Shown here one piece after another: positions 1-11,044 of a stretch of 20,710 nucleotides of DNA. This DNA is from a virus, in the IMG/VR virus record IMGVR_UViG_3300001097_000014, positions 1-20,710 of that record; one strand, given 5' to 3'. Both the position numbers and the translations under genes were made by a program. The notes beneath the pieces were generated by a model. The model saw nothing but the letters and a program-made list of their open reading frames with translations, ran no database searches and had not been told where the DNA came from. The number at the start of each line of letters is the position of its first letter. Position 1 is the stretch's first letter.

Positions 1-1
1 C

Positions 2-127
2 GACGTCGTCGATGCCGCCCGCGAAACCCTCGACGCCGCCGATGCTCTGCTTGCCATCGACGCCCACGACATCGCCCTCGCCGCGCTCGAAGCCGCCGGC
101 AAATACGACGCGGCCACCACTCCATGA
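2..127 (+). CDS. Ala-rich small protein, 3' part only (cut by window edge)
   Basis: An open frame enters from the left edge and gives 41 residues ending K-Y-D-A-A-T-T-P before TGA. The composition is dominated by Ala and Asp with regularly spaced Leu/Ile, consistent with a long amphipathic helix or coiled coil. The K-Y-D-A-A motif recurs in the two following genes, so this is probably the end of the first of three tandem paralogues. Its stop overlaps the next start (ATGA at 124-127), which implies translational coupling. I know of no function for such a protein. The missing 5' end lies outside the window. Confidence 0.5.
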   Translation, partial: DVVDAARETLDAADALLAIDAHDIALAALEAAGKYDAATTP

Positions 128-261
128 AAAACAAAACCAATGCCGGCGCCGCAAGCGCCAAACGCGACGCCGCCATCGACGCCGCCGATGCCAAATACGA
201 AGCTGCCTGCGCTCCCCACCGCGCCGAATTTGACGCCACCCTCGCCGCGCTCGACGCTTAA
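124..261 (+). CDS. 45-aa Ala-rich small protein
   Basis: The short frame begins at the ATG that overlaps the preceding stop by 4 nt. It encodes 45 residues starting MKNKTNAGAASAKRD, then D-A-A-D-A-K-Y-E-A-A-C-A-P-H-R-A-E. The segment KYEAACAPHRAE has counterparts in the next gene (KYRAAIAPHLAA and HAACVPHLAE). At DNA level, 202-229 matches 445-472 at 26 of 28 positions, so the two genes are related by duplication. It is predicted to be helical, with charged residues spaced between alanines. There is no recognised domain. It could be a structural or nucleic-acid-associated helix, but that is a guess. Confidence 0.5.
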   Translation: MKNKTNAGAASAKRDAAIDAADAKYEAACAPHRAEFDATLAALDA

Positions 262-545
262 CCCATGAAACCCATGAACGACACCATAAATCCCCGGCGC
301 GTCTCCGAAAACGCCGCCTTCGCAGAACATTCTGCCGAATACGCCGCAGCGGGCGATAAGTATCGGGCCGCCATTGCCCCCCACCTCGCCGCCTACCGCG
401 CCAAATTCGACGCCGCCAAGGCCGCAGCCAGCGCCGAATGCCACGCTGCCTGCGTTCCCCACCTCGCCGAATGCCGCGCCGAACTCACCGTCGCCGCCGA
501 CAAATACAACGCCGCCATGAACGCACTGGCCGACAAATACAACGC
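202..545 (+). repeat. Degenerate repeats inside the Ala-rich genes
   Basis: Positions 202-229 and 445-472 are 26/28 identical, and a further diverged copy lies around 365-390. A separate exact 17-nt repeat, GCCGACAAATACAACGC, sits at 496-512 and 529-545. All copies are in the same reading frame and encode A-A-C-x-P-H-x-A-E or A-D-K-Y-N-A. This shows expansion by duplication both within and between genes. Confidence 0.65.
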
Positions 546-549
546 ATGA
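265..549 (+). CDS. 94-aa Ala-rich protein with internal repeats
   Basis: Encodes 94 residues rich in Ala with scattered Tyr, Cys and His. Two units of the form A-A-x-x-P-H-L-A-x-x-R-A (residues about 36-50 and 62-75) are followed by two copies of A-D-K-Y-N-A near the C terminus; these are written by an exact 17-nt DNA repeat at 496-512 and 529-545. It follows its shorter paralogue by 3 nt, and its stop overlaps the next start (546). ATG265 is chosen because it comes directly after the preceding stop; ATG274 (MNDT) is an alternative. There is no clear ribosome binding site. Probably an elongated helical protein of unknown function. Confidence 0.55.
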   Translation: MKPMNDTINPRRVSENAAFAEHSAEYAAAGDKYRAAIAPHLAAYRAKFDAAKAAASAECHAACVPHLAECRAELTVAADKYNAAMNALADKYNA

Positions 550-695
550 TACCCACAACCATGGACCCAACAATATACTTCATCATCGCATCCATCGGCC
601 TCGTGCTGGTGTTCCCGCTTGGCTGCCTCGCCTACGCCCTGTTCGTCGTGTGGCGCCACGAGCGCGACCGCGCCGAAGAGGAGGGGCTGGAGTGA
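546..695 (+). CDS. Small single-pass membrane protein
   Basis: 49 residues starting MIPTTMDPT. A strongly hydrophobic stretch of about 25 residues (roughly 8-33, rich in I, L, V, F with G and P) is followed by W-R-H-E-R-D-R-A and an acidic end. The positive charge after the helix suggests N-out/C-in topology. The ATG overlaps the upstream stop (546-549). ATG561 (MDPTIYF) is an alternative start. Small one-helix phage proteins may be holin-like, spanin-like or membrane anchors. No lysis gene is adjacent here (the lysozyme-like gene lies 11 kb away), so I do not assign holin function. Confidence 0.6.
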   Translation: MIPTTMDPTIYFIIASIGLVLVFPLGCLAYALFVVWRHERDRAEEEGLE

Positions 696-967
696 GCGCC
701 TACGTGCCGGCACCGTCTGGTGCGCGGATTACCACCGCAGACAAGCGCGGCGCCAATCTGGCACGCGCCCTCTGTCGCCATGGCTACCGCGGCAACTACT
801 GGTTCAAGCCATGCAACCACCGCAAGTTTCTTCTGCTGAATGCGGCCAAGTTCTCCGCATCTTTCAGATGGGGAAGAAAGGGCAAGACCACCAAATACTG
901 GCGCACGGTGGGCGAGTCGCTGCAACTGCACGAAGCCGTGAAGATCGCCAAACAGTCACGACCATGA
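692..967 (+). CDS. 91-aa basic phage protein, GTG start
   Basis: The start is GTG692, overlapping the upstream TGA (693-695), with a good Shine-Dalgarno sequence (GAGGAGGGG, 678-686) about 6 nt upstream. No ATG in this frame fits. The product is basic: it contains R-G-A-N-L-A-R-A-L-C-R-H-G-Y-R-G, then a C-N-H-R-K-F segment, R-W-G-R-K-G-K-T-T-K-Y-W, and a helical end E-A-V-K-I-A-K-Q. The charge pattern would suit nucleic-acid binding, but no family was recognised. Its stop overlaps the next start by 4 nt (964-967). Confidence 0.6.
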   Translation: MSAYVPAPSGARITTADKRGANLARALCRHGYRGNYWFKPCNHRKFLLLNAAKFSASFRWGRKGKTTKYWRTVGESLQLHEAVKIAKQSRP

Positions 968-1137
968 TACCAATAACCTACAGACCGCGGCGCACCGCCA
1001 ATGGTGGGCCGCTGACAAACAAACCGCAGTTCCCCATCCCCGCGTCGGAGCCCGTGGACCCAACGGAAGCGGACAAAGAGGCTCTGGCCAAGGCCGAAGC
1101 CAAGCGCGCCAGAAAACTAGCGCAACGGGGCGCATGA
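964..1137 (+). CDS. 57-aa hypothetical protein
   Basis: Starts at ATG964 inside an ATGA overlap with the previous gene. The sequence MIPITYRPRRTANGG is followed by a Pro-rich linker (F-P-I-P-A-S-E-P-V-D-P) and a highly charged Ala/Lys/Glu helix ending R-A-R-K-L-A-Q-R-G-A. The first codons (ATG ATA CC-) echo those of the gene at 546, perhaps reflecting shared initiation context. It is the last gene of the first coupled block; after it comes the first two-hairpin leader. Function unknown. Confidence 0.5.
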   Translation: MIPITYRPRRTANGGPLTNKPQFPIPASEPVDPTEADKEALAKAEAKRARKLAQRGA

Positions 1138-1147
1138 TTCCAGCACC

Positions 1148-1203
1148 GTGCATCTGGCGAACTGGATGCACCATGCTGCAATTCCGCGGCACAAAACAAC
1201 AAC
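1148..1203 (+). promoter_or_regulatory. Two-hairpin leader, copy 1
   Basis: Hairpin A pairs GTGCATC (1148-1154) with GATGCAC (1165-1171), 7 bp. Two nt later, hairpin B pairs TGCTGC (1174-1179) with GCGGCA (1186-1191), 6 bp including one G-U, with loop AATTCC. A G-free tail CAAAACAACAAC (1192-1203) leads straight to ATG1204. There is no U-tract, so it is not a standard rho-independent terminator, and no Shine-Dalgarno sequence. The same layout recurs at 2104, 3217, 5211 and 6235. Confidence 0.6.
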
Positions 1204-1589
1204 ATGGAAATAAATATAAAAGCAGCTTACGCTGCTATGCAAAAAGCCAGTGGCATCCGAGCGGGTGACACTGTTCGCGTTATTCGCGCTGCGAATGATC
1301 ACGAGATGGGATGGAAATTCGTGGGAGCCCAATGGACGAATGCGTCGGGCATGAATTCAAGGTGCATTCGGTGAGTGGGGGCATCGTTCTCCAAATGCCA
1401 GATAGAGATATTTACGGCTTCCCGTTCTTCGCGCTCATGCTCATCCACCCGGAGCCCGCCCTCATCTACCTCAACGAAGAATACGTCGCCACGGTGACAC
1501 GCGATAACGTCACGGTCGGATGTCAGGTCTTCTCTCACGAGAAGATTCTGGAGCTGGCCGAAGCCGTGAAAGAGGCAAAAACCAACTAA
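1204..1589 (+). pseudogene. Conserved phage protein split by a 1-nt frameshift
   Basis: Two overlapping frames form one protein. From ATG1204 one reads MEINIKAAYAAMQKAS, then G-D-T-V-R-V-I-R-A-A-N-D-H-E-M-G-W-K-F-V, but this frame stops at 1372-1374. The continuation lies in the -1 frame: G-S-P-M-D-E-C-V-G-H-E-F-K-V through F-P-F-F-A-L to 1589. The order G-D-x-V-R-V-x-R-A-A / G-W / M-D-x-x-V-G / F-P-F-F fits a small phage protein family I have seen with these blocks contiguous. Adding one G to the GGG run at 1323-1325 would give a single 128-aa frame, W-K-F-V-G-S-P-M-D-E. There is no classic slippery heptamer at the junction, so true mutation or a homopolymer assembly error is more likely than programmed frameshifting. 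Confidence 0.65.
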
Positions 1590-1601
1590 CCCACCACTAC
1601 C

Positions 1602-2096
1602 ATGGGACTAGACATGTATCTGTCCGCCGAGCGATTCTCGAGCGGCTCCAATCACGCCAGCGAAGAGGAAAAATCCCAATTCGCGGCCTTGCTCAAGGCG
1701 TCGGGGCTGACACGAAAAGACATTTCCGATGTATCGCCACCGGGGCGCGTCAGGTTCGTGGGGCGCGTCAGGTTCGTCGTCGGCTACTGGCGAAAGGCAA
1801 ACGCCATCCACAAGTGGTTTGTGGATGTGGTTCAAGGCGGGGAAGACAAGTGTATGCCGCATGACGTCAGTCGTGTACAGCTGCAGCAGCTGGTTGACGA
1901 GTGCAAGAAGGCCATCGCAGACAAGGGAAAAGCGGACTCTACGGCGCTTCAGCCGCAGAGCGGTTTCTTCTTTGGCTCCACCGAAAAGGGCGAGCGGTAT
2001 TATGCGGAAACGCAGGAGACAATTCAGATGATCGAATCAATCCTGAATAACCCCAAGTTCGAAGACTGGAGTTTCGAATACCGCTCAAGCTGGTAG
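1602..2096 (+). CDS. Conserved phage hypothetical protein (MGLDMYL family)
   Basis: 164 residues opening MGLDMYLSAERF, with V-G-Y-W-R-K-A-N-A-I-H-K-W-F-V in the middle (about residues 60-74), then a helical region L-Q-Q-L-V-D-E-C-K-K-A and G-F-F-F-G-S-T-E-K-G-E-R-Y-Y. This block order is familiar from small proteins of many phages and prophages whose function is unknown. An exact 18-nt in-frame tandem duplication (1742-1777) writes G-R-V-R-F-V twice just before the conserved V-G-Y-W block. ATG1602 is fixed by the conserved N terminus. It follows the frameshifted gene by 12 nt, without an intervening hairpin leader or obvious ribosome binding site. Confidence 0.75.
   Translation: MGLDMYLSAERFSSGSNHASEEEKSQFAALLKASGLTRKDISDVSPPGRVRFVGRVRFVVGYWRKANAIHKWFVDVVQGGEDKCMPHDVSRVQLQQLVDECKKAIADKGKADSTALQPQSGFFFGSTEKGERYYAETQETIQMIESILNNPKFEDWSFEYRSSW
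1742..1777 (+). repeat. Exact 18-nt in-frame tandem duplication
   Basis: GGGGCGCGTCAGGTTCGT occurs at 1742-1759 and again at 1760-1777 with no mismatch. It adds six residues to the host gene without changing frame. The lack of divergence suggests a recent replication-slippage event. Confidence 0.85.
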
Positions 2097-2103
2097 GCAC
2101 CTC

Positions 2104-2151
2104 CAGCCCATTGGTCAGAGCGATGGGCTGTAAGCTGCCAATGCAGCAACC
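2104..2151 (+). promoter_or_regulatory. Two-hairpin leader, copy 2
   Basis: Hairpin A pairs CAGCCCAT (2104-2111) with ATGGGCTG (2123-2130), 8 bp, loop 11 nt. Hairpin B pairs GCTGC (2134-2138) with GCAGC (2143-2147), loop CAAT. A short AACC tail precedes ATG2152. Hairpin A is related to that of copy 4 (17 of 21 central positions match). Confidence 0.6.
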
Positions 2152-2457
2152 ATGAAACCAAAACAAAAAAACAAATACGCTGCCGTCTTACTCAAGGCGG
2201 CTGAGCTGATCGACGATCACAGGGAAATCTACTGCTGTGGTGCCATTGGCGTAGCCAACCGAAACGTGTGGCACAGCAATGTGGAAGCATATTTCCACCA
2301 CTGGATGATGCCACCTTGGGAGCGCCCACACTACGCCTATTTCTCCTATCCCGCGCCTAAAGCTGAAGCCGAACGTCGCCAGCACCGCATCCTTGCGCTG
2401 CTGCTGGTGTCCCTTCTGGCTAGCGAAGGTCGCAACTCACCGGGGGGCAGACAATGA
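2152..2457 (+). CDS. 101-aa hypothetical phage protein
   Basis: Begins MKPKQKNKYAAVLLKAAELI, a basic amphipathic helix, followed by Y-C-C-G-A-I-G-V-A-N, an aromatic-rich central stretch with several His and Trp (Y-F-H-H-W-M-M-P-P-W), and a hydrophobic helix L-A-L-L-L-V-S-L-L-A near the C terminus. The hydrophobic segment is short and may be a core helix rather than a membrane span. The C-C pair and His residues could bind metal, though there is no recognisable site. It follows leader copy 2 by AACC and overlaps the next gene by 4 nt. Function unknown. Confidence 0.65.
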   Translation: MKPKQKNKYAAVLLKAAELIDDHREIYCCGAIGVANRNVWHSNVEAYFHHWMMPPWERPHYAYFSYPAPKAEAERRQHRILALLLVSLLASEGRNSPGGRQ

Positions 2458-2744
2458 TTCGCACTCTAACGCTCGAGTTCCGGATCGTGGCAGTGACCGA
2501 CAAGCCCAACTCATTCGGCCTGCATGGTCACGTCATGATAAATCGCGCTGGCGAGGCATGGGAAGTCGGCCGATCCCGCGGCCCATGGAATAATCCACAG
2601 TGGAACAAGGGCGACGACATAAAGGTCCCCGCCTCTGAGGACGACCACAAGCGCGTCACGCTTCACTGGGAACGGCTCAGCTGCGAGATACCTCGCCGCC
2701 TGCCGCCCCCACCCGACAGCGTTATCAGGTCGGTGTTCAAGTAA
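2454..2744 (+). CDS. 96-aa hypothetical phage protein
   Basis: Starts at ATG2454 in an ATGA overlap with the previous gene; a G-rich stretch (GGGGGG, about 2443-2448) upstream can serve as ribosome binding site. The N-terminal half is beta-like (T-L-T-L-E-F-R-I-V-A-V-T-D), then come several Trp residues (E-A-W-E-V-G-R-S-R-G-P-W-N-N-P-Q-W) and a Pro-rich C terminus (R-R-L-P-P-P-P-D-S). No domain recognised. It is the second gene of the cassette and is followed by the third hairpin region. Confidence 0.6.
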   Translation: MIRTLTLEFRIVAVTDKPNSFGLHGHVMINRAGEAWEVGRSRGPWNNPQWNKGDDIKVPASEDDHKRVTLHWERLSCEIPRRLPPPPDSVIRSVFK

Positions 2745-2745
2745 T

Positions 2746-2800
2746 CTTGCCGCAAGGCCCGCCGTCAGTCGGTCACTGACACAAAAAGGAAACAAACAAC
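2746..2800 (+). promoter_or_regulatory. Divergent hairpin leader, copy 3
   Basis: A small hairpin CTTG/CAAG (2746-2749 with 2753-2756) comes first, then GTCAGT (2764-2769) pairs with ACTGAC (2775-2780) around loop CGGTC. The tail is ACAAAAAGGAAACAAACAAC before ATG2801. Unlike the other copies it carries a Shine-Dalgarno-like AAGGA, and its hairpin order is reversed. It is therefore a weaker member of the set, included because of its position and A/C-rich tail. Confidence 0.4.
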
Positions 2801-3208
2801 ATGGGAACTCGCTCACTAACGCACGTCTATGATGACGATAAAGTCATCCTGACGCTCTACCGTCAATTCGACGGCTATCCGGAAGGCCTCGGCCTTGACC
2901 TCGCCAAATTCCTCGACGGCTTCGTAGTCGTCAACGGTTTCGGCATAAAGAACCCAGAAAAGTGCGCCAACGGCATGGGCTGCTTGGCGGCGCAGCTCGT
3001 CTGCCACCTCAAGGATGGAGTCGGCAACGTATACATCTACCCCGTCGAGTCGAAAGACTGTGACGAGGAGTATGTCTACCACATCAGGCACGAGGAGGGC
3101 ATCGGCCTGACCATCGAAATCAGGGACGCCGACAACAAGAAACTGACCCTGAAGGGCACGCCCAAGGCGCTGCTTTCGGCCATCCCGAAACTGCAGCACG
3201 ACAGCTAA
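2801..3208 (+). CDS. Conserved phage hypothetical protein (MGTRSLTHVYD family)
   Basis: 135 residues opening MGTRSLTHVYDDD, then Y-R-Q-F-D-G-Y-P-E-G-L-G-L-D-L-A-K-F-L (about 21-39) and N-G-M-G-C-L-A-A-Q-L-V-C-H-L-K-D (about 58-73), then a beta-rich V-Y-I-Y-P-V segment. This order of blocks is a well-populated family in phages and bacterial genomes with no assigned function; the conserved R-Q-F-D-G-Y-P block is its hallmark. The start is fixed by the conserved MGTRSL N terminus, and an AGGA sequence lies about 12 nt upstream. It is a single-gene cassette between two hairpin leaders. Confidence 0.8.
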   Translation: MGTRSLTHVYDDDKVILTLYRQFDGYPEGLGLDLAKFLDGFVVVNGFGIKNPEKCANGMGCLAAQLVCHLKDGVGNVYIYPVESKDCDEEYVYHIRHEEGIGLTIEIRDADNKKLTLKGTPKALLSAIPKLQHDS

Positions 3209-3216
3209 CCTGCTCC

Positions 3217-3281
3217 TAGCCCATCGTTCTGAGCGGTGGGCTACAGGCAGGCTGGATTCCCCGGCCATGCAAACAACCAAC
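3217..3281 (+). promoter_or_regulatory. Two-hairpin leader, copy 4
   Basis: Hairpin A pairs TAGCCCATCG (3217-3226) with CGGTGGGCTA (3234-3243): 10 bp including one U-G, loop TTCTGAG. Hairpin B pairs GGCTGG (3250-3255) with CCGGCC (3261-3266), including one U-G, loop ATTCC. The tail ATGCAAACAACCAAC (3267-3281) runs into ATG3282. This is the strongest copy by base pairing. Confidence 0.65.
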
Positions 3282-3575
3282 ATGAAAAATGAAACTGTTA
3301 GAGTTAGCCAAGGCGTCGTCCCGGTCCCGGAAGAACTCAGCACGCAAAGCATTGCGGGGCTGGCCGAAATCATCCGGGGCAACTGGAAGCCGAAGGTTTA
3401 CTTCGGCGCCGTTCCCTATCTGGATGCCATGAGAAGCATGCAGAGCATCAACGACGACTACGGCTTCGATCCCGGCCGGGAAGTGGTCAACTACTTCCTC
3501 GCCAACGCCCAGACGTGGCGCGGTGACGTCGCCCGGTCGGTTAAGGCCGAACTCAAGAAGCGGGTGTCGTCATGA
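3282..3575 (+). CDS. Conserved phage hypothetical protein (AVPYLDAM family)
   Basis: ATG3282 is preferred over ATG3267 because every other leader copy places the start immediately after the CAAC tail; ATG3267 lies at the foot of hairpin B. The C-terminal half carries Y-F-G-A-V-P-Y-L-D-A-M, then D-D-Y-G-F-D-P-G-R-E-V-V-N-Y-F-L-A-N-A-x-T-W-R-G-D-V-A-R-x-V-K-A-E-L. I recognise this as a common small phage protein (here 97 aa) of unknown function. It is mostly helical with a basic C-terminal end. Its stop overlaps ATG3572 of the next gene by 4 nt. Confidence 0.75.
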   Translation: MKNETVRVSQGVVPVPEELSTQSIAGLAEIIRGNWKPKVYFGAVPYLDAMRSMQSINDDYGFDPGREVVNYFLANAQTWRGDVARSVKAELKKRVSS

Positions 3576-3871
3576 GCGCCAAGCAAATGTTTGCCCCCAA
3601 CGGTCTCAGGATCGTGGGGCAGGTGGACATCATCATCGGCATCGCCCAGTGCAGCGAAGCCACTCGCAAAAAGGATCGCACGCTCGAACCGGAATGGGAG
3701 GGCGGGACTGACGTGGACTGGGACAGCCAGACCGGCATGATCATCAAGTCCGGACGGCTATCTGGCCAGAAGCAGTTCAAAGACGAGAACGCGGGCTGGT
3801 GGCCCGAGTCTCTCGTCAGCCTCGAAGGAGAACCGCTGAAGATCGCCAGCAAACGGGAGGGAAAGAAATGA
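3572..3871 (+). CDS. 99-aa conserved hypothetical phage protein
   Basis: Begins MSAKQMFAPNGLRIVGQVDI and includes I-I-G-I-A-Q-C-S, E-P-E-W-E-G-G-T-D-V-D-W-D-S-Q and a basic tail K-R-E-G-K-K. The G-G-T-(D/E)-V-x-W-D-x-Q block with an upstream V-x-G-x-x-x-I pattern is seen in small phage proteins and suggests a beta-strand fold. Function unknown. It is translationally coupled on both sides: it overlaps the upstream stop by 4 nt and the next ATG (3868) by 4 nt. Confidence 0.65.
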   Translation: MSAKQMFAPNGLRIVGQVDIIIGIAQCSEATRKKDRTLEPEWEGGTDVDWDSQTGMIIKSGRLSGQKQFKDENAGWWPESLVSLEGEPLKIASKREGKK

Positions 3872-4059
3872 AAATGATCCCCTGCTGCCGGAACTGGCGC
3901 GTCAAGGTGTGGCACCCTGACGGTTCTATCACATCGATAGTTGTCGTCACCATCAACAAGCGCTTCGCCAAGTGGGAGGCCATCGACCAGATCGGCCACC
4001 TGCGTTGGTATAACCGGACCAAGGACACGGTGTCTCTGGTTCAACAACCGAAAAAATAA
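3868..4059 (+). CDS. 63-aa hypothetical protein
   Basis: Starts at ATG3868 within an ATGA overlap and is preceded by a strong purine run GGGAGGGAAAG (3856-3866). The sequence begins MKMIPCCRNW, then R-V-K-V-W-H-P-D-G-S-I-T-S-I-V-V-V, and ends with a basic, aromatic segment L-R-W-Y-N-R-T-K-D. It reads like a compact beta protein. The gene at 7100 has a comparable W-R-L-P-D-G pattern, which may or may not be homologous. No function can be given. Confidence 0.6.
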   Translation: MKMIPCCRNWRVKVWHPDGSITSIVVVTINKRFAKWEAIDQIGHLRWYNRTKDTVSLVQQPKK

Positions 4060-4060
4060 C

Positions 4061-4459
4061 ATGAACAGACAAGAAGTATTCAACACGGTGCGCAAGCACC
4101 TCCTGAAGCAAAATGCAAAAGCAGAAACGTGGGGGGGTTCGTGCAGATACCGAACCGGCGAGGGCCTCAAGTGCGCGGTTGGGTGTCTTATCGCGTCAGA
4201 GCATTACCACCCAGACTTCGAGGGCCTGACCCCTACACTCGAGGGCGCTGAAGGCGATGGCGCTGAAGGCGATAGCCCTATCTCTCGCACAAAGCGCTTG
4301 CTACGGGCCATCGCCGACTCCCTCGGGATTCCCGAGATAACCAGCGAAGATGCGTCGTTCCTGAAAGAACTCCAGAGCATTCACGACGACTACGACACGC
4401 ATAAATGGAGTGCGAAACTGGAAGAGTTTGCCTTTATGAACAACCTCAGCATCGACTGA
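4061..4459 (+). CDS. Conserved hypothetical protein (CAVGCLI family)
   Basis: ATG4061 follows the upstream stop by 1 nt with an A-rich AAAAAATAAC context and no Shine-Dalgarno sequence. The product is 132 residues: N-R-Q-E-V-F-N-T-V-R-K-H-L-L-K-Q-N, then C-R-Y-R-T-G-E-G-L-K-C-A-V-G-C-L-I (about 29-45) and a helical C-terminal domain ending near I-H-D-D-Y. This block order with three Cys is known from bacterial and phage hypothetical proteins. An exact 15-nt tandem repeat (4244-4273) adds a second G-A-E-G-D in an acidic linker. Metal binding by the cysteines is possible but not shown. Confidence 0.7.
   Translation: MNRQEVFNTVRKHLLKQNAKAETWGGSCRYRTGEGLKCAVGCLIASEHYHPDFEGLTPTLEGAEGDGAEGDSPISRTKRLLRAIADSLGIPEITSEDASFLKELQSIHDDYDTHKWSAKLEEFAFMNNLSID
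4244..4273 (+). repeat. Exact 15-nt in-frame tandem duplication
   Basis: GGCGCTGAAGGCGAT at 4244-4258 is repeated without mismatch at 4259-4273. It duplicates G-A-E-G-D in an acidic, probably flexible linker and keeps the frame. Confidence 0.85.
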
Positions 4460-4475
4460 ACAACCCAAGGACTAA

Positions 4476-5201
4476 ATGAGCTATCAGAAATACCGACTGC
4501 TGTGCGTCGGTCACGACCCCAAGACCCTGAAGGGAGAGAAGTTCGGCTACCTTACGGGGCTGACCTACCTCGCTCCGCACAAGTTGAGCGGTCTGGGCAA
4601 CGTCTGCCCCCATGCCAGCAGTGGCTGCATCAAGGCCTGCCTTAACACGGCAGGACGTGGTGCCATGCAGTATGCGCAGGATGCGCGAATCAGGAAGACC
4701 CGCCTGTTCTTTCAGGACCGGCTGGAATACCTGAGGCAGTTGCGGTTTGACCTAAGCACGCTCAGCAATGATGCCGAGTATCGGCGCATGATCCCGTGTG
4801 CCCGGCTGAACGCAACCAGCGACATCCCGTGGGAAAAATTCGGAGTGATGGAGGCCTATCCGTCGCTTCAGTTCTATGACTACACCAAAAACCCCAAGAG
4901 AATGATGGCGTTTCTCGCGGGCAAGTCTGCCGGCGTGCCAATGCCAAAAAACTACCACCTGACGTTCAGTCGCAGCGAATCAAACGAGGACCAGTGCCTT
5001 GACATTCTTCGCTGGGGCGGCAACGTCGCCGCTGTATTCTCTGGTGGACTCCCTTCCGAGTGGAAGGAGTTCCCCGTAGTCTGCGGAGACGAGAGCGATC
5101 TGCGCTTCCTCGATGGCAAGGGCGTTGTCGTCGGTCTCACCGCCAAGGGCCGCGGCAAGAAGGACACAAGCGGATTCGTCATAAGCCAATATGGCGCTTG
5201 A
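4476..5201 (+). CDS. Gp88-like cysteine-containing phage protein
   Basis: 241 residues, start supported by CCCAAGGA about 8 nt upstream. Key blocks: L-T-Y-L-A-P-H-K-L-S-G, then N-V-C-P-H-A-S-S-G-C-I-K-A-C-L-N-T-A-G-R-G (Cys44, Cys51, Cys55), R-I-R-K-T-R-L-F-F-Q-D-R, A-R-L-N-A-T-S-D-I-P-W-E (about 109-120) and a C-terminal beta-rich region. The clustered cysteines followed by a conserved R-L-N-x-T-S-D segment match a phage protein group related to mycobacteriophage Gp88-like proteins (family assignment from memory, not searched). No catalytic activity is established; a metal or Fe-S site at the three cysteines is plausible. It is the last gene before leader copy 5. Confidence 0.65.
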   Translation: MSYQKYRLLCVGHDPKTLKGEKFGYLTGLTYLAPHKLSGLGNVCPHASSGCIKACLNTAGRGAMQYAQDARIRKTRLFFQDRLEYLRQLRFDLSTLSNDAEYRRMIPCARLNATSDIPWEKFGVMEAYPSLQFYDYTKNPKRMMAFLAGKSAGVPMPKNYHLTFSRSESNEDQCLDILRWGGNVAAVFSGGLPSEWKEFPVVCGDESDLRFLDGKGVVVGLTAKGRGKKDTSGFVISQYGA

Positions 5202-5210
5202 TTGCATCCC

Positions 5211-5267
5211 TAGCCCCGTGACAGGGGGCTACATGCTGCAATCCCGCAGCAAACAACCAACAAGTAT
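5211..5267 (+). promoter_or_regulatory. Two-hairpin leader, copy 5
   Basis: Hairpin A pairs TAGCCCC (5211-5217) with GGGGCTA (5225-5231), loop GTGACAG. Hairpin B pairs TGCTGC (5234-5239) with GCAGCA (5246-5251), loop AATCCC. The tail AACAACCAACAAGTAT leads to ATG5268. The core of hairpin A, CCCCGTGACAGGGGG, is the exact reverse complement of the core of copy 6. Confidence 0.65.
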
Positions 5268-6227
5268 ATGGCACATGAAATGACTAAGGATGACCACATG
5301 GTCTCCGCTGGGAACAGAGTTCCGTGGCACGGCCTCGGCGCTGTCTTGACCGACAAAGCGCTGACGGCTGAAGCCGCCCTGAAAGCCGCAAGGCTCGACT
5401 GGGAGGTGACGCCCGAGCATGTGTTTGACGGTGAGATGGTGGACCTTGACGGGTTCCGCCTGCTTCGCCGCTCTGACACCCGGCAGGTGCTGTCCATCGT
5501 AACGAAGGACTGGACCCCGCTGCAGAACCGCCAGCTGCTGGAAATCGCTGAAGCCTTGGCGCAAGCCCCGGGCACTGGCGACTTCCAGCCTGTGATCGAA
5601 ACGGCCGGCTCCCTACGCTGGGGCAAGATCGTCTGGGCACTCGTCCAGACCGGACTGCGCAACTTCGCAGGCAGCGACCACAAGCAGTATATCCTGCTGT
5701 CCAACGGCCACTACGCTGGCCGGGGGGTGCGTGGCACGCTGACTGACGTTCGCGTCGTCTGCAACAACACCCTGACTGCGGCGGAGAACAGCAAGTCGGC
5801 GCTGTTCACGACGCATCAGGGCAACGTGACCGACCGCATCAATGCGGCGATTGAGACCATCGGCTGGGCCACGTCGGCCACCGAGGCGACATTCGCCATC
5901 TATGAGGCGCTGGCCAACAAGAACGTGACGCACGACGCGGCCTACAAGCTGTTCGTGCGGCTGTTCCAGAAGGACAAGGAAGCAAATGACGTCACGGACA
6001 CCGAGCTGGACCGCGCCGCCGAGATGATGGCGCTGTTCAAGATCGGCCGGGGCAACGAGGGCAAGACGGCCTTCGATCTGGTCAATGCGGTAACCGACTT
6101 TGTGGACCACCACAAGGTCTACAAGGAGTCGGAAGGTAAGGACGAGCGCCGGTTTCTGGACACCACCTTTGGTGGCGTCGGGGCTGGCCTCAAGAAGCGC
6201 GCCCTGAAGATGGCGATGGCACTGTAA
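5268..6227 (+). CDS. DUF932 (phage/plasmid-like TIGR03299-type) protein
   Basis: 319 residues beginning MAHEMTKDDHMVSAGNRVPWHGLG, followed by W-E-V-T-P-E-H-V-F, L-L-R-R-S-D-T-R-Q-V-L, Y-I-L-L-S-N-G-H-Y-A-G-R-G-V-R-G, and V-C-N-N-T-L-T-A-A. The W-H-G-L-G start, the central V-x-C-x-N-T-L block and the length are typical of the DUF932 family carried by phages and plasmids. The biochemical role is unknown; a link to DNA metabolism has been guessed from distribution. The start follows leader copy 5 and has no Shine-Dalgarno sequence. It is the largest gene in the left cassette region and forms a single-gene cassette between two leaders. Confidence 0.88.
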   Translation: MAHEMTKDDHMVSAGNRVPWHGLGAVLTDKALTAEAALKAARLDWEVTPEHVFDGEMVDLDGFRLLRRSDTRQVLSIVTKDWTPLQNRQLLEIAEALAQAPGTGDFQPVIETAGSLRWGKIVWALVQTGLRNFAGSDHKQYILLSNGHYAGRGVRGTLTDVRVVCNNTLTAAENSKSALFTTHQGNVTDRINAAIETIGWATSATEATFAIYEALANKNVTHDAAYKLFVRLFQKDKEANDVTDTELDRAAEMMALFKIGRGNEGKTAFDLVNAVTDFVDHHKVYKESEGKDERRFLDTTFGGVGAGLKKRALKMAMAL

Positions 6228-6234
6228 CCTCAAC

Positions 6235-6298
6235 CTGCCCCCTGTCACGGGGGGCAGTCATGAGGCGGCAATGCCGCTACCTCAAAACAACCATAAAA
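6235..6298 (+). promoter_or_regulatory. Two-hairpin leader, copy 6
   Basis: Hairpin A pairs CTGCCCCC (6235-6242) with GGGGGCAG (6250-6257), loop TGTCACG. Hairpin B pairs GCGGC (6265-6269) with GCCGC (6273-6277), loop AAT. An A/C-rich tail CTCAAAACAACCATAAAA ends at ATG6299. Hairpin A carries the inverted core of copy 5. Confidence 0.62.
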
Positions 6299-6331
6299 AT
6301 GAACCTGCAAGGAATGTTCGAGTCGTCATGA
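6299..6331 (+). CDS. Possible 10-residue leader peptide
   Basis: The ATG that directly follows leader copy 6, where the other copies place their gene start, opens a frame of only ten codons, MNLQGMFESS, then TGA (6329-6331). The stop overlaps ATG6328 of the next gene (ATGA). Translating it would couple ribosomes from the leader into the following gene. The alternative is that ATG6271, in frame with the downstream gene but inside hairpin B, is used. The call rests only on position. Confidence 0.35.
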   Translation: MNLQGMFESS

Positions 6332-6639
6332 CCATACTACACAAACCAGTGAGGCGCGTCAGCAATAGCAAGCTATCCGCCTCGCATGGCAGAGACAAGA
6401 ACCGTCGCATCGTCGTCACCCTAGTCCCGGGTAACGGCGGCAGCGTCCCTGACCTCATCCAGCTGAAACCGCAGCGCCTGAAAATGGCCCGCGCCATCTC
6501 GATGGAAGACCTCTGGGTCTACCTCATAAAGTGCGAAGCGAACCAGACCAAGATGGCCAAGCTGCGGGATCGCAAAGCCAAGAAGGAAGCAAGCAGGGCA
6601 GAGCGCGCCCGGAAACGCCGACTAAGGAGCAACGAATGA
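6328..6639 (+). CDS. Small basic phage protein
   Basis: From ATG6328, 103 residues: MTILHKPVRRVSNSKLS, then R-R-I-V-V-T-L-V-P-G-N-G and I-Q-L-K-P-Q-R-L, then a long Lys/Arg/Ala-rich C-terminal helix (about residues 75-103, ending A-R-K-R-R-L-R-S-N-E). Small phage proteins of this shape, with a V-x-R start, beta core and basic helical tail, are common and uncharacterised; the tail suggests nucleic-acid binding. The start is uncertain: ATG6271 would add 19 residues but lies inside hairpin B. Coupling from the 10-codon frame fits ATG6328, and AAGGA lies about 14 nt upstream. The stop overlaps ATG6636. Confidence 0.6.
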   Translation: MTILHKPVRRVSNSKLSASHGRDKNRRIVVTLVPGNGGSVPDLIQLKPQRLKMARAISMEDLWVYLIKCEANQTKMAKLRDRKAKKEASRAERARKRRLRSNE

Positions 6640-7082
6640 AAAACCAACGAAAGCAATCCAACATCACGGTCAGCGTCATCGACCTGACCGGCCCTCTTGC
6701 GCAGGCGCTTGAGGAATTCAACCAAGCCCGTCTATCCAAGGGGCAGGAGACCGCCATCAAGGTAAGCACCAGTGACTACGGTTACGTGCAGACAGAGCAA
6801 GGCATGTTCTGTCTGTGTCGAGATGGCGCGGGCCATGACCACCCCATCACAGCAGACAAGAAGCTGGACATCGACCTCTATCCCGGGTGGGCTGAGGCGG
6901 AGGCGATAATGCCGTCCGGTATACTCGAGCTGTCGGATATGGAGATCATGATGCTCCCCTCCAAGCAGGAGGAACAGCTGGAGGACTTCATCCGCACCTT
7001 CGGTGGCCGGCTGGAGGCCAACTACGAAGTCTGGCTCAACTGCCTCACCAAGGCCCGTCCCATGGCCGCAAATTTTGGGTAA
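6636..7082 (+). CDS. 148-aa hypothetical phage protein
   Basis: Starts at ATG6636, overlapping the previous TGA, with a clear Shine-Dalgarno sequence AAGGAG (6624-6629). It begins MKNQRKQSNITVSVIDLTG, followed by a helix P-L-A-Q-A-L-E-E-F-N-Q-A-R, a central beta region with Y-G-Y-V-Q-T-E-Q-G-M-F-C-L-C-R-D-G, and an acidic helical C-terminal half containing E-E-Q-L-E-D-F-I-R-T-F-G-G-R-L-E. No domain recognised. It is the second-last gene of the rightward block. Confidence 0.65.
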   Translation: MKNQRKQSNITVSVIDLTGPLAQALEEFNQARLSKGQETAIKVSTSDYGYVQTEQGMFCLCRDGAGHDHPITADKKLDIDLYPGWAEAEAIMPSGILELSDMEIMMLPSKQEEQLEDFIRTFGGRLEANYEVWLNCLTKARPMAANFG

Positions 7083-7099
7083 CATCCAATAAAAACTAA

Positions 7100-7279
7100 A
7101 TGCTTAAATATCTATACCAACGCTGGCTTGCGTGGCGTCTCCCCGACGGCCCACTAGTGCTGGAGACCCGGACCGTGCTAGCCCGTAAAGGGCCCGTCAA
7201 CATAGTTTGGTATTCCTACAGGAAGCCCAACGGAAACATCCTCTGGCATATAATCGAGGAGAAATCCTCTGATATATAA
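7100..7279 (+). CDS. 59-aa hypothetical protein at the convergent junction
   Basis: ATG7100 lies 17 nt after the preceding stop, in AT-rich sequence (AATAAAAACTAAATG) with no Shine-Dalgarno sequence. The product starts MLKYLYQRWLAWRLPDGPLV and contains L-A-R-K-G-P-V-N-I-V-W-Y-S-Y-R-K-P-N-G and a short C-terminal I-I-E-E-K-S-S-D-I. Its last codons lie inside a 26-nt tandem duplication, and the stop TAA is supplied by the second copy, so the original C terminus may have been different. It is the last rightward gene before the terminase genes, which run the other way. Confidence 0.5.
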   Translation: MLKYLYQRWLAWRLPDGPLVLETRTVLARKGPVNIVWYSYRKPNGNILWHIIEEKSSDI

Positions 7280-7289
7280 TCGAGGAGAA
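7238..7289. repeat. 26-nt tandem duplication between convergent genes
   Basis: Two adjacent 26-nt units (7238-7263 and 7264-7289) differ at only two neighbouring positions (GC versus AT). Each contains TCCTC and GAGGA 12 nt apart, so each can form a 5-bp hairpin on either strand. The repeat sits between the end of the rightward block and the terL stop at 7294. No T-run follows on either strand. It may be a weak bidirectional transcription-stop or processing element. Confidence 0.75.
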
Positions 7290-7293
7290 GCAA

Positions 7294-9267
7294 TCAACCC
7301 CCATCCTCGGCGCCAAGGTCAAGCTCTCCGCGAACGTCGTCACCGGCTTCCAGCGGAGAACCTTCGAGGTCGAGCGGCTCCTCCCTGTCGATCTTTTCGT
7401 CAGTGGGCGTAGTCGCTTGCGGCGCACCCTTTCCCTCGTTTCGTGACTTCTGCTCAATGATGCCGGGCGTGATCCCGCCGCGCATCCTGACCAGATGCAC
7501 CAGCATGACGACAGCGTCCATTTCGTCTGGCGATTTGCCGGCGTTGCGGGCCTTGTATTCATCCTTGGATTCGACATGCAGGCGGCCATTGCGCATGCCC
7601 TTGTAGCGGCGCGTGGTCATCTGGCTATACATGTCAGGCGCCTGAATCGTGCCGTTGAACAGCAGCGCGCACACGTTTGGGTCCAGCCAGTGCTTGGTGG
7701 CAAACCACATCTCGGACGGAACTCCGTCGAACCTGTCCTTTGCCATCATGACGTCATCGGTCAGAATCTTGGTCTCACTGGCGGACTCCGCCCAGTTGAT
7801 GCCAAGCACCTTGCCCCAGTATTTGGAGGCATAGGAATAGGTGGCCATGGCGTTGCCAGTGGAGTCCATTGCGACCCACTCGGCCGAGATGCGGAGCTGC
7901 TTGCACTGCCCCATCACCTGCTGCGTCACGCCCATGACGTCGAGGCTCTTCGGCAGCGTGAAGAATTGGTCGATGGTCAGGACGTGCCGGCTCTGCTTCT
8001 GGCCCGGGTTCAGCCGGTTCTCGAAGTAGTGGTTGGCGCCCTTCTGGTCGCGCCAGCCATGCGCCAGACCCCAGCGACCGATGGCAATGACCGCCTTGTC
8101 GGCGCCTTGGTAGGCCAAGTCTACCGCTGCCACGTTGATGACGTCACCCACGTATAGCGCCTCACCGCGCTGCGTGCTCGCCCAATCCGGCGGGATGATT
8201 GTGTTGGCCGAGTTCTGCAGTGGCGGGAAGCCGCGGGCAAACGTCCAGTAGCGGGGCGAGGCATCGCCGCCACCCTTCAGCGTATCTAGGAAGGCCTCGT
8301 AACGCATGACGCCCGGGTAGATTTCCCGACGCTGCACCACGTTCTCGCACTTGGCGGCATCCAATCGAACCACCCACCAGCCTTGTGCGGACTCGTAGCT
8401 GTAGAGCGTCTCCTGCTGGTCGGAATGCCAGCCGCCAGTCGGTTCAGCGCGCCGAACGACCGCCTGAGACACGTCCTCGGGGTTGAAGGCGGCAAAGATT
8501 TTCACACGGCCGGCACCGACGGATGCCTTGACCGAGTTCAGGTCCTGCCACACGCCCTCAGGAATCTGCTGCGCCTCGTCCATAAGCACGCGCAGCCGGG
8601 TCATCGGTCCGAACTGGTGAAAGTTCTGGTCGGTAATTGGGCGCTTGGGCTGGGGCTTGAATCCCTTCCACGCGCCAGACGACAACTGGCTCTGCTTGAA
8701 CGCCATGCCAGCGAAGCCGTAGGACTTTTCGCAATCCGCCATGCCCATCCACAGATCAGACGGTAGGTCCTTCACCTTGCCGTCCGGACGCAGCGCGCAC
8801 GACTCATGAATCTGCATCAAGTGAGGCCAGACGTTGTCGGTCAAATGCTTGTCCGACTGGGACATCAGCTTCACGCTGGTCCACTCCGGATCGCGCAGCC
8901 AGTCCATGTAACAGAAGATGACCAGATTGTAAGTCTTGCCCATGGAGGAGGCGCCCATCGATAGCATCAGTGGCTGGACAGCAGCCGCCTCAAAGATTTC
9001 TCGCACGCTCTGAAGCTCGGGGTGAAACAGGGGCGGGCCCCAGCAGAGGGCGGCAGCGCCGACGTAATTGTTGGCGTCCACCATGGCATTGAAGAACATC
9101 CGGATGATTTTCTCGCCTTCGGTATCCAGCGACACGTCAGGCGTGTCACCGATGGCGTATTTCAGCAGATTTGCGGCGGTCGCTTTGTTGCCAGCAGCCA
9201 GCTCTCCATGGATCAGTTTGATCTGTGCAATGTCGAGCGCCAGACCGAGAGGCTTGGCATCGGTCAT
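7294..9267 (-). CDS. terL: Terminase large subunit (DNA packaging ATPase-nuclease)
   Basis: 657 residues with all main TerL elements. The N-terminal ATPase domain has a Walker A-like G-A-S-S-M-G-K-T (105-112), Walker B R-V-L-M-D-E-A-Q with D230/E231, and a coupling segment A-A-F-N-P-E (about 259-264). The C-terminal RNase H-like nuclease has V-A-A-V-D-L-A-Y-Q-G-A-D (D383, D390), W-V-A-M-D-S-T-G-N-A (D468) and K-S-P-D-E-M-D-A (D581, D584), the expected metal-binding acids. It would pump DNA into the prohead and cut the concatemer. An acidic, probably disordered tail (about 600-657) follows the nuclease. It is the second gene of a leftward pair, overlapping the upstream gene by 4 nt. The subtype (cos or pac) cannot be told from sequence alone. 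Confidence 0.95.
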   Translation of the reverse strand: MTDAKPLGLALDIAQIKLIHGELAAGNKATAANLLKYAIGDTPDVSLDTEGEKIIRMFFNAMVDANNYVGAAALCWGPPLFHPELQSVREIFEAAAVQPLMLSMGASSMGKTYNLVIFCYMDWLRDPEWTSVKLMSQSDKHLTDNVWPHLMQIHESCALRPDGKVKDLPSDLWMGMADCEKSYGFAGMAFKQSQLSSGAWKGFKPQPKRPITDQNFHQFGPMTRLRVLMDEAQQIPEGVWQDLNSVKASVGAGRVKIFAAFNPEDVSQAVVRRAEPTGGWHSDQQETLYSYESAQGWWVVRLDAAKCENVVQRREIYPGVMRYEAFLDTLKGGGDASPRYWTFARGFPPLQNSANTIIPPDWASTQRGEALYVGDVINVAAVDLAYQGADKAVIAIGRWGLAHGWRDQKGANHYFENRLNPGQKQSRHVLTIDQFFTLPKSLDVMGVTQQVMGQCKQLRISAEWVAMDSTGNAMATYSYASKYWGKVLGINWAESASETKILTDDVMMAKDRFDGVPSEMWFATKHWLDPNVCALLFNGTIQAPDMYSQMTTRRYKGMRNGRLHVESKDEYKARNAGKSPDEMDAVVMLVHLVRMRGGITPGIIEQKSRNEGKGAPQATTPTDEKIDREEPLDLEGSPLEAGDDVRGELDLGAEDGG

Positions 9268-9826: not shown

Positions 9827-11044
9827 ATGAGCTTCGACACAATCGACCGTTGCCGCATCAGCGGTTCTGCGAATCTGATAAGGGTTCTTTCTCTTGGGAA
9901 CATGGCACTCACCGGGGTTTTCCCCAAAAAGCGCACCGACAAGGTGACGTCTGGCCCAGTCAGCCTTGTCTATTGCCCAGACTCCGGCCTGCTCCAGATG
10001 GAGCAGAGCTACGATCTCAACGAGATGTATGGCGACAACTACGGCTATCGCTCGGGCCTGAACGCCAGCATGGTCAAGCACCTGACAGACAAGGTCGCCT
10101 ACCTGCAGACCATCAAGCCACTGGATGCCGAGTCCACGGTTCTCGACATCGGAGGCAATGACGGCACGCTGCTGAAGTGCTATGGCACAGCAGGGCTCAG
10201 GCGCATCTGCATAGACCCGACCGTGGACAAGTGGCGCGAGCACTACGTGGGCACGGACATCGAAGTGGAAGCGAACTTCTTTGCGTTCCGTCCGATGAAC
10301 ACGGCAGACATCATCACGAGCATCGCCATGTTTTACGATCTCGAGGACCCGAGCGTCTTCGTGCGGGATATTGCTCTAAGCCTGAAGCCGCAGGGAATCT
10401 GGCACTTTGAGCAGAGCTATCTCCCTTCCATGCTGCGGGCCAACGCCTACGACACGGTGTGCCACGAGCACTTGGAATACTACACGCTAAGCGTGGTCAT
10501 GGCACTCCTTGCCAAGCACGGCCTGCGCGTGATCGACGTTGAGCTTAACGACATCAACGGCGGAAGTTTTGCTGTGACTGCGGCGCACATAAAAAGCGGC
10601 CACAAGGAAAACGCCATCGCCATCACCGGCTTGCTGCTCAAAGAGGCGCGCACCGACATGCTATCTGAGCTGCGCAACTTCGAGGCCCGGGTATCGGTGC
10701 ATCGAGCCAAACTGCGTCATCTGGTGAGCGATCTGAACAACCAAGGCCACACGGTGGCGGCTCTGGGCGCATCGACCAAGGGCAACGTGCTCTTGCAATA
10801 CTGTGGATTCACCAACCGCGACATCGGCTTTGTGTCCGACGTCAACCCGCTCAAGCACGGCTGCTTTACCCCCGGCACCCATATCCCGATCGTCAGCGAG
10901 GAGTTCGCAAGGGCTTACAAGCCTGACTATATGCTGGTGCTGCCTTGGCACTTTAGGGAAGGCATCGTAAAGCGAGAGCAAGCCTATCTGCAGGGCGGCG
11001 GCAAGCTCCTGTTCCCGCTGCCTAATCTCGAGGTGGTCCGTTGA
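9827..11044 (+). CDS. Sugar C-methyltransferase-like SAM enzyme
   Basis: 405 residues from ATG9827; a TTG at 9791 would add 12, but it coincides with a -35-like sequence and the family starts just before its Cys motif. Three parts: an N-terminal zinc-ribbon-like segment (C9-R-I-S12 ... Y-C50-P-D-S53-G), a class I SAM-binding domain with V-L-D-I-G-G-N-D-G-T-L-L (105-116), and a C-terminal C-methyltransferase-type domain with L-G-A-S-T-K-G-N-V-L-L-Q-Y and a final L-L-F-P-L-P-N-L-E-V-V. This architecture belongs to NDP-hexose C-methyltransferases, which add a carbon-bound methyl to a keto-sugar nucleotide. Two of the usual CxxC cysteines are Ser here, so zinc binding is doubtful. It overlaps the next gene by 4 nt. 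Confidence 0.8.
   Translation: MSFDTIDRCRISGSANLIRVLSLGNMALTGVFPKKRTDKVTSGPVSLVYCPDSGLLQMEQSYDLNEMYGDNYGYRSGLNASMVKHLTDKVAYLQTIKPLDAESTVLDIGGNDGTLLKCYGTAGLRRICIDPTVDKWREHYVGTDIEVEANFFAFRPMNTADIITSIAMFYDLEDPSVFVRDIALSLKPQGIWHFEQSYLPSMLRANAYDTVCHEHLEYYTLSVVMALLAKHGLRVIDVELNDINGGSFAVTAAHIKSGHKENAIAITGLLLKEARTDMLSELRNFEARVSVHRAKLRHLVSDLNNQGHTVAALGASTKGNVLLQYCGFTNRDIGFVSDVNPLKHGCFTPGTHIPIVSEEFARAYKPDYMLVLPWHFREGIVKREQAYLQGGGKLLFPLPNLEVVR

Follow-up and report, generated by a model that had tools for sequence, protein, structure and literature searches.

The hairpin that recurs between small-gene cassettes of the uncultivated phage in IMG/VR record IMGVR_UViG_3300001097_000014 is probably functional, as an RNA switch or a processing site. 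The window analysed here is the first 20,710 bases of this 42,264-base record, and five copies of the element lie in a plus-strand block of small genes near its start. As predicted from pairing in this phage and in its relatives, each copy is built of three strands: strand A, at the stop codon of the upstream gene, closes an interrupted hairpin with strand B, and B can pair instead with strand C, ahead of the next start codon. The pairing evidence indicates that the element is real and selected, and very probably that its structure is selected at the level of RNA. An initial annotation of this DNA was right about the five copies, and the structure that it drew was incomplete.

Architecture of the five copies

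The initial annotation placed two-hairpin leader elements at positions 1148, 2104, 3217, 5211 and 6235, and at all five the sequence folds better than its dinucleotide shuffles (z-scores of -3.19, -3.48, -4.12, -3.57 and -4.76, respectively). A descriptor of the architecture, written after the copies had been seen (a stem of at least 7 pairs, a short gap, a second stem with AAT or ATT in its loop, and an ATG within 40 nt), retrieved exactly these five from both strands of the record, none being on the minus strand, while shuffles of positions 1-7290 gave a mean of 0.07 matches and never more than 2 (200 shuffles). When the AAT/ATT and ATG conditions were dropped, 15 matches on the plus strand and 10 on the minus strand of the record were found, the five copies included, so the loose two-hairpin architecture is common in this GC-rich genome. 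A looser sixth copy, proposed at 2746, did not hold up. That site (2745-2800, plus strand) comprises a 6-bp hairpin, GTCAGT-cggtc-ACTGAC, and an A-rich tail; its z-score is -0.50, with 55 of 200 shuffles folding equally well, and it is not counted as a copy.

The copies sit at cassette boundaries, as had been suggested. The plus-strand block from 692 to 7279 holds 15 gene junctions, six of them gaps of 55-73 nt and the other nine overlapping or at most 17 nt apart (three starts were entered in this count 1-3 nt off, the actual ATGs being at 964, 3282 and 6299). Five of the six wide gaps contain a copy and the sixth contains the 2746 site, whereas none of the nine tight junctions contains one.

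In every copy the first hairpin of the initial annotation proved to be the inner part, 7-12 bp long, of a longer hairpin whose outer stem A-B encloses an internal loop. The two-hairpin architecture is therefore present at the five sites but was incompletely described, as the outer stem had been overlooked and the second hairpin partly competes with it; some relatives lack the second hairpin altogether. Copy 1 (1141-1191) has A as CAGCA at 1141-1145, the inner hairpin at 1148-1171, a CA in the internal loop at 1172-1173 and B as TGCTG at 1174-1178, with the second hairpin, formed by B and C, at 1174-1191 and the next ATG at 1204. The outer stem of copy 2 (2096-2147) is the weakest of the five, with 4 bp and a 4 × 5 internal loop; here A is GGCA at 2096-2099, its first base being the last of the stop codon TAG, the inner hairpin spans 2104-2130, B is TGCC at 2136-2139, and the second hairpin at 2134-2147 precedes an ATG at 2152. 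In copy 3 (3209-3266), strand A (CCTGCT, 3209-3214) adjoins the stop codon TAA and is followed by the inner hairpin at 3217-3243, a CA at 3244-3245, B (GGCAGG, 3246-3251) and the second hairpin at 3250-3266, with the next in-frame ATGs at 3267 and 3282.

Copy 4 (5200-5251) follows the GP88 gene, and its strand A, GATTGCA at 5200-5206, overlaps two bases of the stop codon TGA at 5199-5201. The inner hairpin lies at 5211-5231, B is TGCAATC at 5237-5243, the second hairpin spans 5234-5251 and the next ATG is at 5268; an alternative outer pairing, GCAT with ATGC, joins 5204-5207 to 5233-5236. Copy 5 (6228-6278) follows the DUF932 gene and comprises A (CCTCA, 6228-6232, adjoining a TAA stop), the inner hairpin (6235-6257), a TCA at 6258-6260, B (TGAGG, 6261-6265) and the second hairpin (6264-6278), with the next ATG at 6299. 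All five copies are on the plus strand. Strand A starts anywhere from two bases inside the upstream stop codon to three bases past it, and the leader from C to the ATG is 4-20 nt long, A/C-rich and free of a Shine-Dalgarno-like motif. A further feature of the two last copies is that positions 5214-5229 of copy 4 and 6237-6252 of copy 5 are exact reverse complements over 16 nt, so that their loops are inverted relative to each other.

The outer strands match their own partners. When each A was paired with its own B the total score was 68.5, ranking first among the 120 permutations, whose mean is 35.9. The claim that pairing is kept despite differences in bases also stood, both sides differing among the copies at 5 of the first 7 pairs of the inner hairpin; this is a description, the stems having been drawn as pairs. 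A shuffle test of the second hairpin (75.5 versus 26.7, reached by 0 of 500 shuffles) was set aside as evidence because the copies had been reported for having that hairpin. A MAFFT sequence alignment of the five copies was misaligned and was rejected as the basis of a covariance model.

Strand B overlaps the second hairpin, and copies 1, 2 and 4 cannot form both structures. Copies 3 and 5 have a two-base overlap and a second hairpin that could extend across B. When A was forced open in folding, B stayed in the second hairpin. Across the five copies the predicted energies of the A-B state and the A-blocked state differ by 0.5-2.2 kcal/mol, with the balance predicted to favour B-C in copies 1, 2 and 4 and A-B in copies 3 and 5. 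The relative L031 was excluded from this energy comparison, its strand having been mis-located.

The copies lack U-tracts, as had been noted. A terminator scan of positions 1-7300 gave 12 matches against 9.0 expected, none of them on a copy, and the GC-rich hairpin with U-tract of an intrinsic terminator is thus not found at these sites.

Pairing and occurrence in related phages

Related uncultivated phage contigs were reached through their GP88 proteins. As the five copies misalign by sequence, the covariation check proposed in the initial annotation was run on an orthologous site in relatives, with RNAalifold and pair counts in place of R-scape. The site chosen was the one just after GP88, which is that of copy 4, and the alignment comprised 40 orthologous sequences (31 distinct) without gaps; it leaves out 7 of 47 distinct post-GP88 sequences of the L010 group, which carry other hairpins. 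In this alignment 89.9% of paired cells were able to pair, compared with 77.2% in shuffles, and 73 cells had changed on both sides, compared with 28.0 (each reached by 0 of 500 shuffles). The covariation score was 0.420 as against 0.177 in shuffles (0 of 500), with slid controls at or below 0.111, and RNAalifold predicted 14 pairs, 9 of them with changes on both sides. The proposal of a selected RNA structure is borne out by this strong covariation after GP88, together with the failure of shuffles to reproduce the five-copy pattern. Mismatched cells were more often G-U (76) than A-C (12), or 47 versus 12 once one invariant wobble pair is removed; the count carries some built-in bias because the structure was derived by RNA folding, which admits G-U, and the excess points to what is expected for RNA of the coding strand.

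The outer stem was examined in 69 representatives, out of 243, of hairpins that lie near a stop codon ahead of a G-poor leader and had been selected solely by their inner stem. Here the outer stem scored 7.01, compared with 2.91 when permuted (0 of 2000), and was clear in 36 of the 69. The B strands of many relatives also fit a downstream C strand. Scored with its own downstream sequence in 29 representatives, which exclude the window phage and its near-identical relative L004 and come from a pool of 66 candidates that still contained the window phages, B gave 10.48, versus 8.08 for permuted and 8.56 for shuffled sequence (0 of 400 each). With 36 representatives, including two L004 copies, the value was 9.18 versus 7.29, reached in 3 of 2000 permutations.

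The hairpins also cluster at stop codons. Of 44 strong interrupted hairpins (score of at least 34), 25 start between 3 nt before and 8 nt after the end of the stop codon of an open frame, compared with 22 of 249 weak ones. A CA on the 3' side of the internal loop was present in 23 of 69 matches near a stop and in 6 of 163 far from stops; the set counted was redundant and contained both the window and L004. Folding predicts that the stop codon takes part in the pairing in 37 of 39 sequences of the L010 group, and for L010 it gives stems of 6, 7 and 10 pairs separated by two small interruptions. Loops of the GNRA type occur in relatives.

Many phages with a GP88 protein about 55% identical to that of the window have a single interrupted hairpin at the stop just after GP88, followed by a similar leader. 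Six loci (L017, L023, L025, L027, L028 and L031) carry 3-7 hairpins of this build each, on the coding strand, against 0-0.25 per strand in shuffles, and a few of these hairpins are possibly due to chance. L025 and L027 have one hairpin after GP88 and one after DUF932, as in the window, the latter at the same site as copy 5. A DUF932 search returned only the near-identical phage, so this synteny rests on L025 and L027, both reached through GP88. The window and L027 have different genes after GP88, and an element is present in both. Because loci overlap between searches, raw match counts include near-copies; the tests of the outer stem and of B with its downstream sequence were made on clustered representatives.

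At this place other GP88 phages carry U-tract terminators or different hairpins, or show nothing resembling the element. Seven loci (L014, L021, L260, L287, L183, L269 and L294) have other hairpins instead of the interrupted one just after GP88, and L019 and L020 share the start of the following gene but have different hairpin types. Among phage records, eight GP88 regions (two of them uncultured) were folded over the 90 nt after GP88, and seven of the predictions failed to match, three of these being plain hairpins. The spring-water podovirus record MW202701.1 (L319) has interrupted hairpins of similar build before and after GP88, near 10529 and 11342, each followed by a TTCTATAGGAYA leader, which is Shine-Dalgarno-like. 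Among 80 loci fetched with the gene at 1602-2096, one being the near-identical phage, no match was judged to belong to this family. L005, whose GP88 is 57% identical, has no element after GP88; by eye, a GC palindrome, CCGGGCSGCCCGG, recurs between its genes near 5906, 6579, 7507, 8266, 8968 and 9346, at several places some 50-110 nt ahead of the next start.

Gene block and neighbouring features

Small genes fill the plus-strand block from about 1 to 7280, and the copies probably lie in one polycistronic transcript of non-structural genes. The block includes the genes for GP88 (PF17338; 4476-5201, plus strand, directly upstream of copy 4) and DUF932 (PF06067; 5268-6227, plus strand, between copies 4 and 5), and head or tail matches were found in 3 of the 10 minus-strand proteins examined. 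Promoter-like matches in the block are at chance level (2 versus 2.2 expected). A Shine-Dalgarno-like 4-mer is absent at 9 of 14 starts in the block, including all five that follow a copy, and also at 18 of 26 minus-strand starts.

A near-identity search of phage records gave no close match to the window. The 64.6-kb relative L004 is 99.4% identical to the window phage across about 15 kb, and its five copies are unchanged apart from a G-run in copy 5 that is one G longer; being nearly unchanged, they add no covariation. The gene after copy 1 (1204-1589) is frameshifted in the present record and intact in L004. A repeat array with 33-base spacing occupies positions 7-550, in the first genes, and L004 differs from it by two insertions (12 and 9 bases) and several substitutions. 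After copy 5, a 10-codon frame (MNLQGMFESS, 6299-6331) overlaps the ATG of the next gene's frame at 6328 as ATGA and is possibly a leader peptide. Positions 6484-6502 and 6818-6836, in two neighbouring genes, are perfectly complementary over 19 nt. Beyond the window, one of three late gaps inspected in sequence (record positions 38688-38821, minus strand) contains a strong GC hairpin with TTTGC behind it.

Processing, switching and other readings

With regard to the roles put forward initially, RNA processing or translation control fits the data, and cassette exchange is disfavoured. The reading preferred here, tentatively and with confidence somewhat short of even, is that of an intercistronic mRNA processing and stability element. 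The long interrupted A-B hairpin would act as an RNase III-type processing and stability signal and would be cut on the 3' side of the internal loop, often at CA, so that the upstream mRNA would keep the inner hairpin as its 3' cap. The released B would then pair with C, placing a 5'-terminal hairpin on the downstream mRNA beside an unpaired start region, and a single element would in this way separate two cassettes and protect both RNA ends. Such a cut-and-recap model would account for the alternative pairing and for the placement, and it is favoured by the presence of the element in five of six wide gaps and in none of the nine narrow ones, by outer stems that match their own partners in the window and in relatives, by the covariation and the G-U excess after GP88, by the fit of B to its own downstream sequence, by the predicted pairing over the stop codon in the L010 group and by the lack of a U-tract terminator.

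Several observations weigh against this processing model. Both the cleavage step and co-transcription are assumptions, and the RNase III rules that would apply are those of a host for which a scan of genome contigs, with four loci, gave no clear candidate. Neither the L010 post-GP88 class nor certain others have the B-C hairpin, and as classes exist that have no C strand, re-capping cannot be universal. The internal-loop CA is frequent rather than fixed, and some of the 23 near-stop matches that have it are near-identical. The outer stem can largely coexist with the second hairpin in copies 3 and 5, and the outer stems in the window are short, at 4-7 bp. A descriptor of the interrupted hairpin is not specific on its own, since at its standard threshold it finds copies 1, 3 and 5 on the plus strand together with five minus-strand matches, compared with 1.25 per strand in shuffles. 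Two of the counts in the post-GP88 alignment stand little above shuffles, namely pairs changed on both sides (9 versus 7.3, reached by 25 of 500 shuffles) and further pair types (25 versus 22.5, reached by 53 of 500). Finally, ordinary U-tract terminators occur at the same place in some other GP88 phages.

The main rival, which we regard as possible but rather unlikely, is a ribosome-driven stop-to-start switch without cleavage that sets the timing or the ratio between neighbouring cassettes. A terminating ribosome would cover or melt A, pushing B onto C, and a ribosome initiating at the next gene would reverse this; B-C would be favoured because the terminating ribosome must open A. The position of A at or within the stop codon, the predicted pairing of the stop in nearly all of the L010 group, the small predicted energy difference between the two states, the specificity of B-C above permutations and the end of C 4-20 nt ahead of the ATG are all consistent with such a switch. 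It fits poorly with the L010 post-GP88 class, which has no C strand, and with copies 3 and 5, where B shares just 2 bases with the second hairpin.

Readings as a terminator, a protein site or a DNA boundary fit less well. A non-canonical, U-poor terminator or attenuator that tapers expression between cassettes appears unlikely. It would be in keeping with the U-tract terminators at the orthologous site in several more distant GP88 phages (L045, L057, L060 and others) and with the other hairpin found there in 7 of the 47 distinct L010-group sequences, 6 of which are plain and followed by CTTTC, but the terminator scan has no match on the window copies, no T-run follows the listed copies of the L017-L031 group, and full termination would silence the next cassette, given that promoter-like matches are at chance level. 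Repeated copies of conserved build in one block, the recurrent internal-loop CA and the GNRA-type loops of relatives would suit a binding site through which a phage or host RNA-binding protein represses or activates translation of several cassettes together, a quite improbable reading given that apical loops and stems differ strongly among the five copies and that, beyond the build, the common sequence is mostly limited to the A/C tail and the AAT/ATT of the second loop. That the palindromes act on DNA, promoting cassette exchange or marking insertion sites, is judged very improbable. The cassette-boundary position, the mutually inverted loops of copies 4 and 5 and the change of the post-GP88 gene between the window and L027 would agree with it; however, a DNA palindrome predicts no strand bias such as the coding-strand excess of G-U over A-C (in a structure from RNA folding), all copies have a single orientation to the genes, and strands outside the palindrome matter too. 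The 25 loose two-hairpin matches in the record, the five copies included, would agree with chance hairpins in GC-rich intergenic DNA, but the fold z-scores, the descriptor shuffles, the covariation in relatives and the own-partner outer stems of window and relatives make chance hardly credible.

Searches of open-licence papers listed none that was recognised as describing such an element. At gathering score Rfam 15 has no match in the window, a permissive threshold gives two weak minus-strand matches away from the copies (E-values of 0.47 and 4), and five relatives yield one tRNA only. The nearest described kind found is that of the Start-Associated Sequences (SAS) and extended SAS (ESAS) of cluster K mycobacteriophages, inverted repeats just upstream of starts. 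According to the reports, SAS is a fixed 13-mer with a Shine-Dalgarno core, ESAS are 17-bp inverted repeats with a sequence consensus, and the function of neither is established (PMC3203893, PMC12699233). Both kinds comprise inverted repeats ahead of starts, nearly all in one orientation in SAS/ESAS, and both lie in a non-structural region in gaps of more than 50 bp (mostly so in SAS/ESAS; all at 55-73 nt in the window). Unlike SAS/ESAS, the window elements vary in sequence while keeping their structure, have a leader without a Shine-Dalgarno-like motif, begin at the upstream stop codon and have an alternative pairing. The SAS 13-mer GGGATAGGAGCCC has no match in the window with up to 2 mismatches; with 3 mismatches there are 7 matches versus 6.01 expected, including one at copy 3 on the opposite strand. 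Inverted repeats are present, but the stems differ among copies and do not share a consensus of the ESAS type. As the 13-mer is absent, the SAS/ESAS repeats are conserved in sequence and Rfam gives no match, the element is placed in neither SAS/ESAS nor any Rfam family.

A long interrupted hairpin between cistrons is the build of the RNase III sites of phage T7, such as R1.1, and to our knowledge these are described neither with an alternative pairing to the next leader nor with a stop codon inside or touching the stem. The window elements resemble them as hairpins that separate cistrons in a polycistronic phage transcript, and their predicted fold has the long, interrupted intercistronic stem without U-tract of phage RNase III sites, albeit with short outer stems. 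They differ from T7 sites as described by the leader pairing and the stop codon in or at the stem, features predicted here from sequence. Functionally, the closest likeness may be to an RNase III intercistronic site to which a strand exchange has been added. In T7 itself, the early precursor RNA is cut by RNase III at five sites (PMC4858673). The likeness to type I toxin mRNAs, in which structure keeps the nascent RNA untranslated until ribonuclease processing (PMC11228461), is one of concept only, namely alternative structure coupled to processing and translation, and the genes are different.

In a broader reading, possible though doubtful, the element is a portable three-strand RNA switch of an uncultivated phage group in which B alternates between two partners, one at a gene's stop codon and the other in the start region of the following gene. 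It would make upstream termination and downstream initiation exclude or time each other, and it would recur within a single transcript, preserved by matching changes in the two pairings as neighbouring genes and sequences are replaced. With short genes packed into long transcripts, phages need separate outputs without separate promoters. A stop-to-start element with two pairings, recurrent in uncultivated phages whose leaders lack Shine-Dalgarno motifs, would, if true, be one answer to this need, and would add to the RNA structures that have no Rfam match and can be found by build rather than by sequence.

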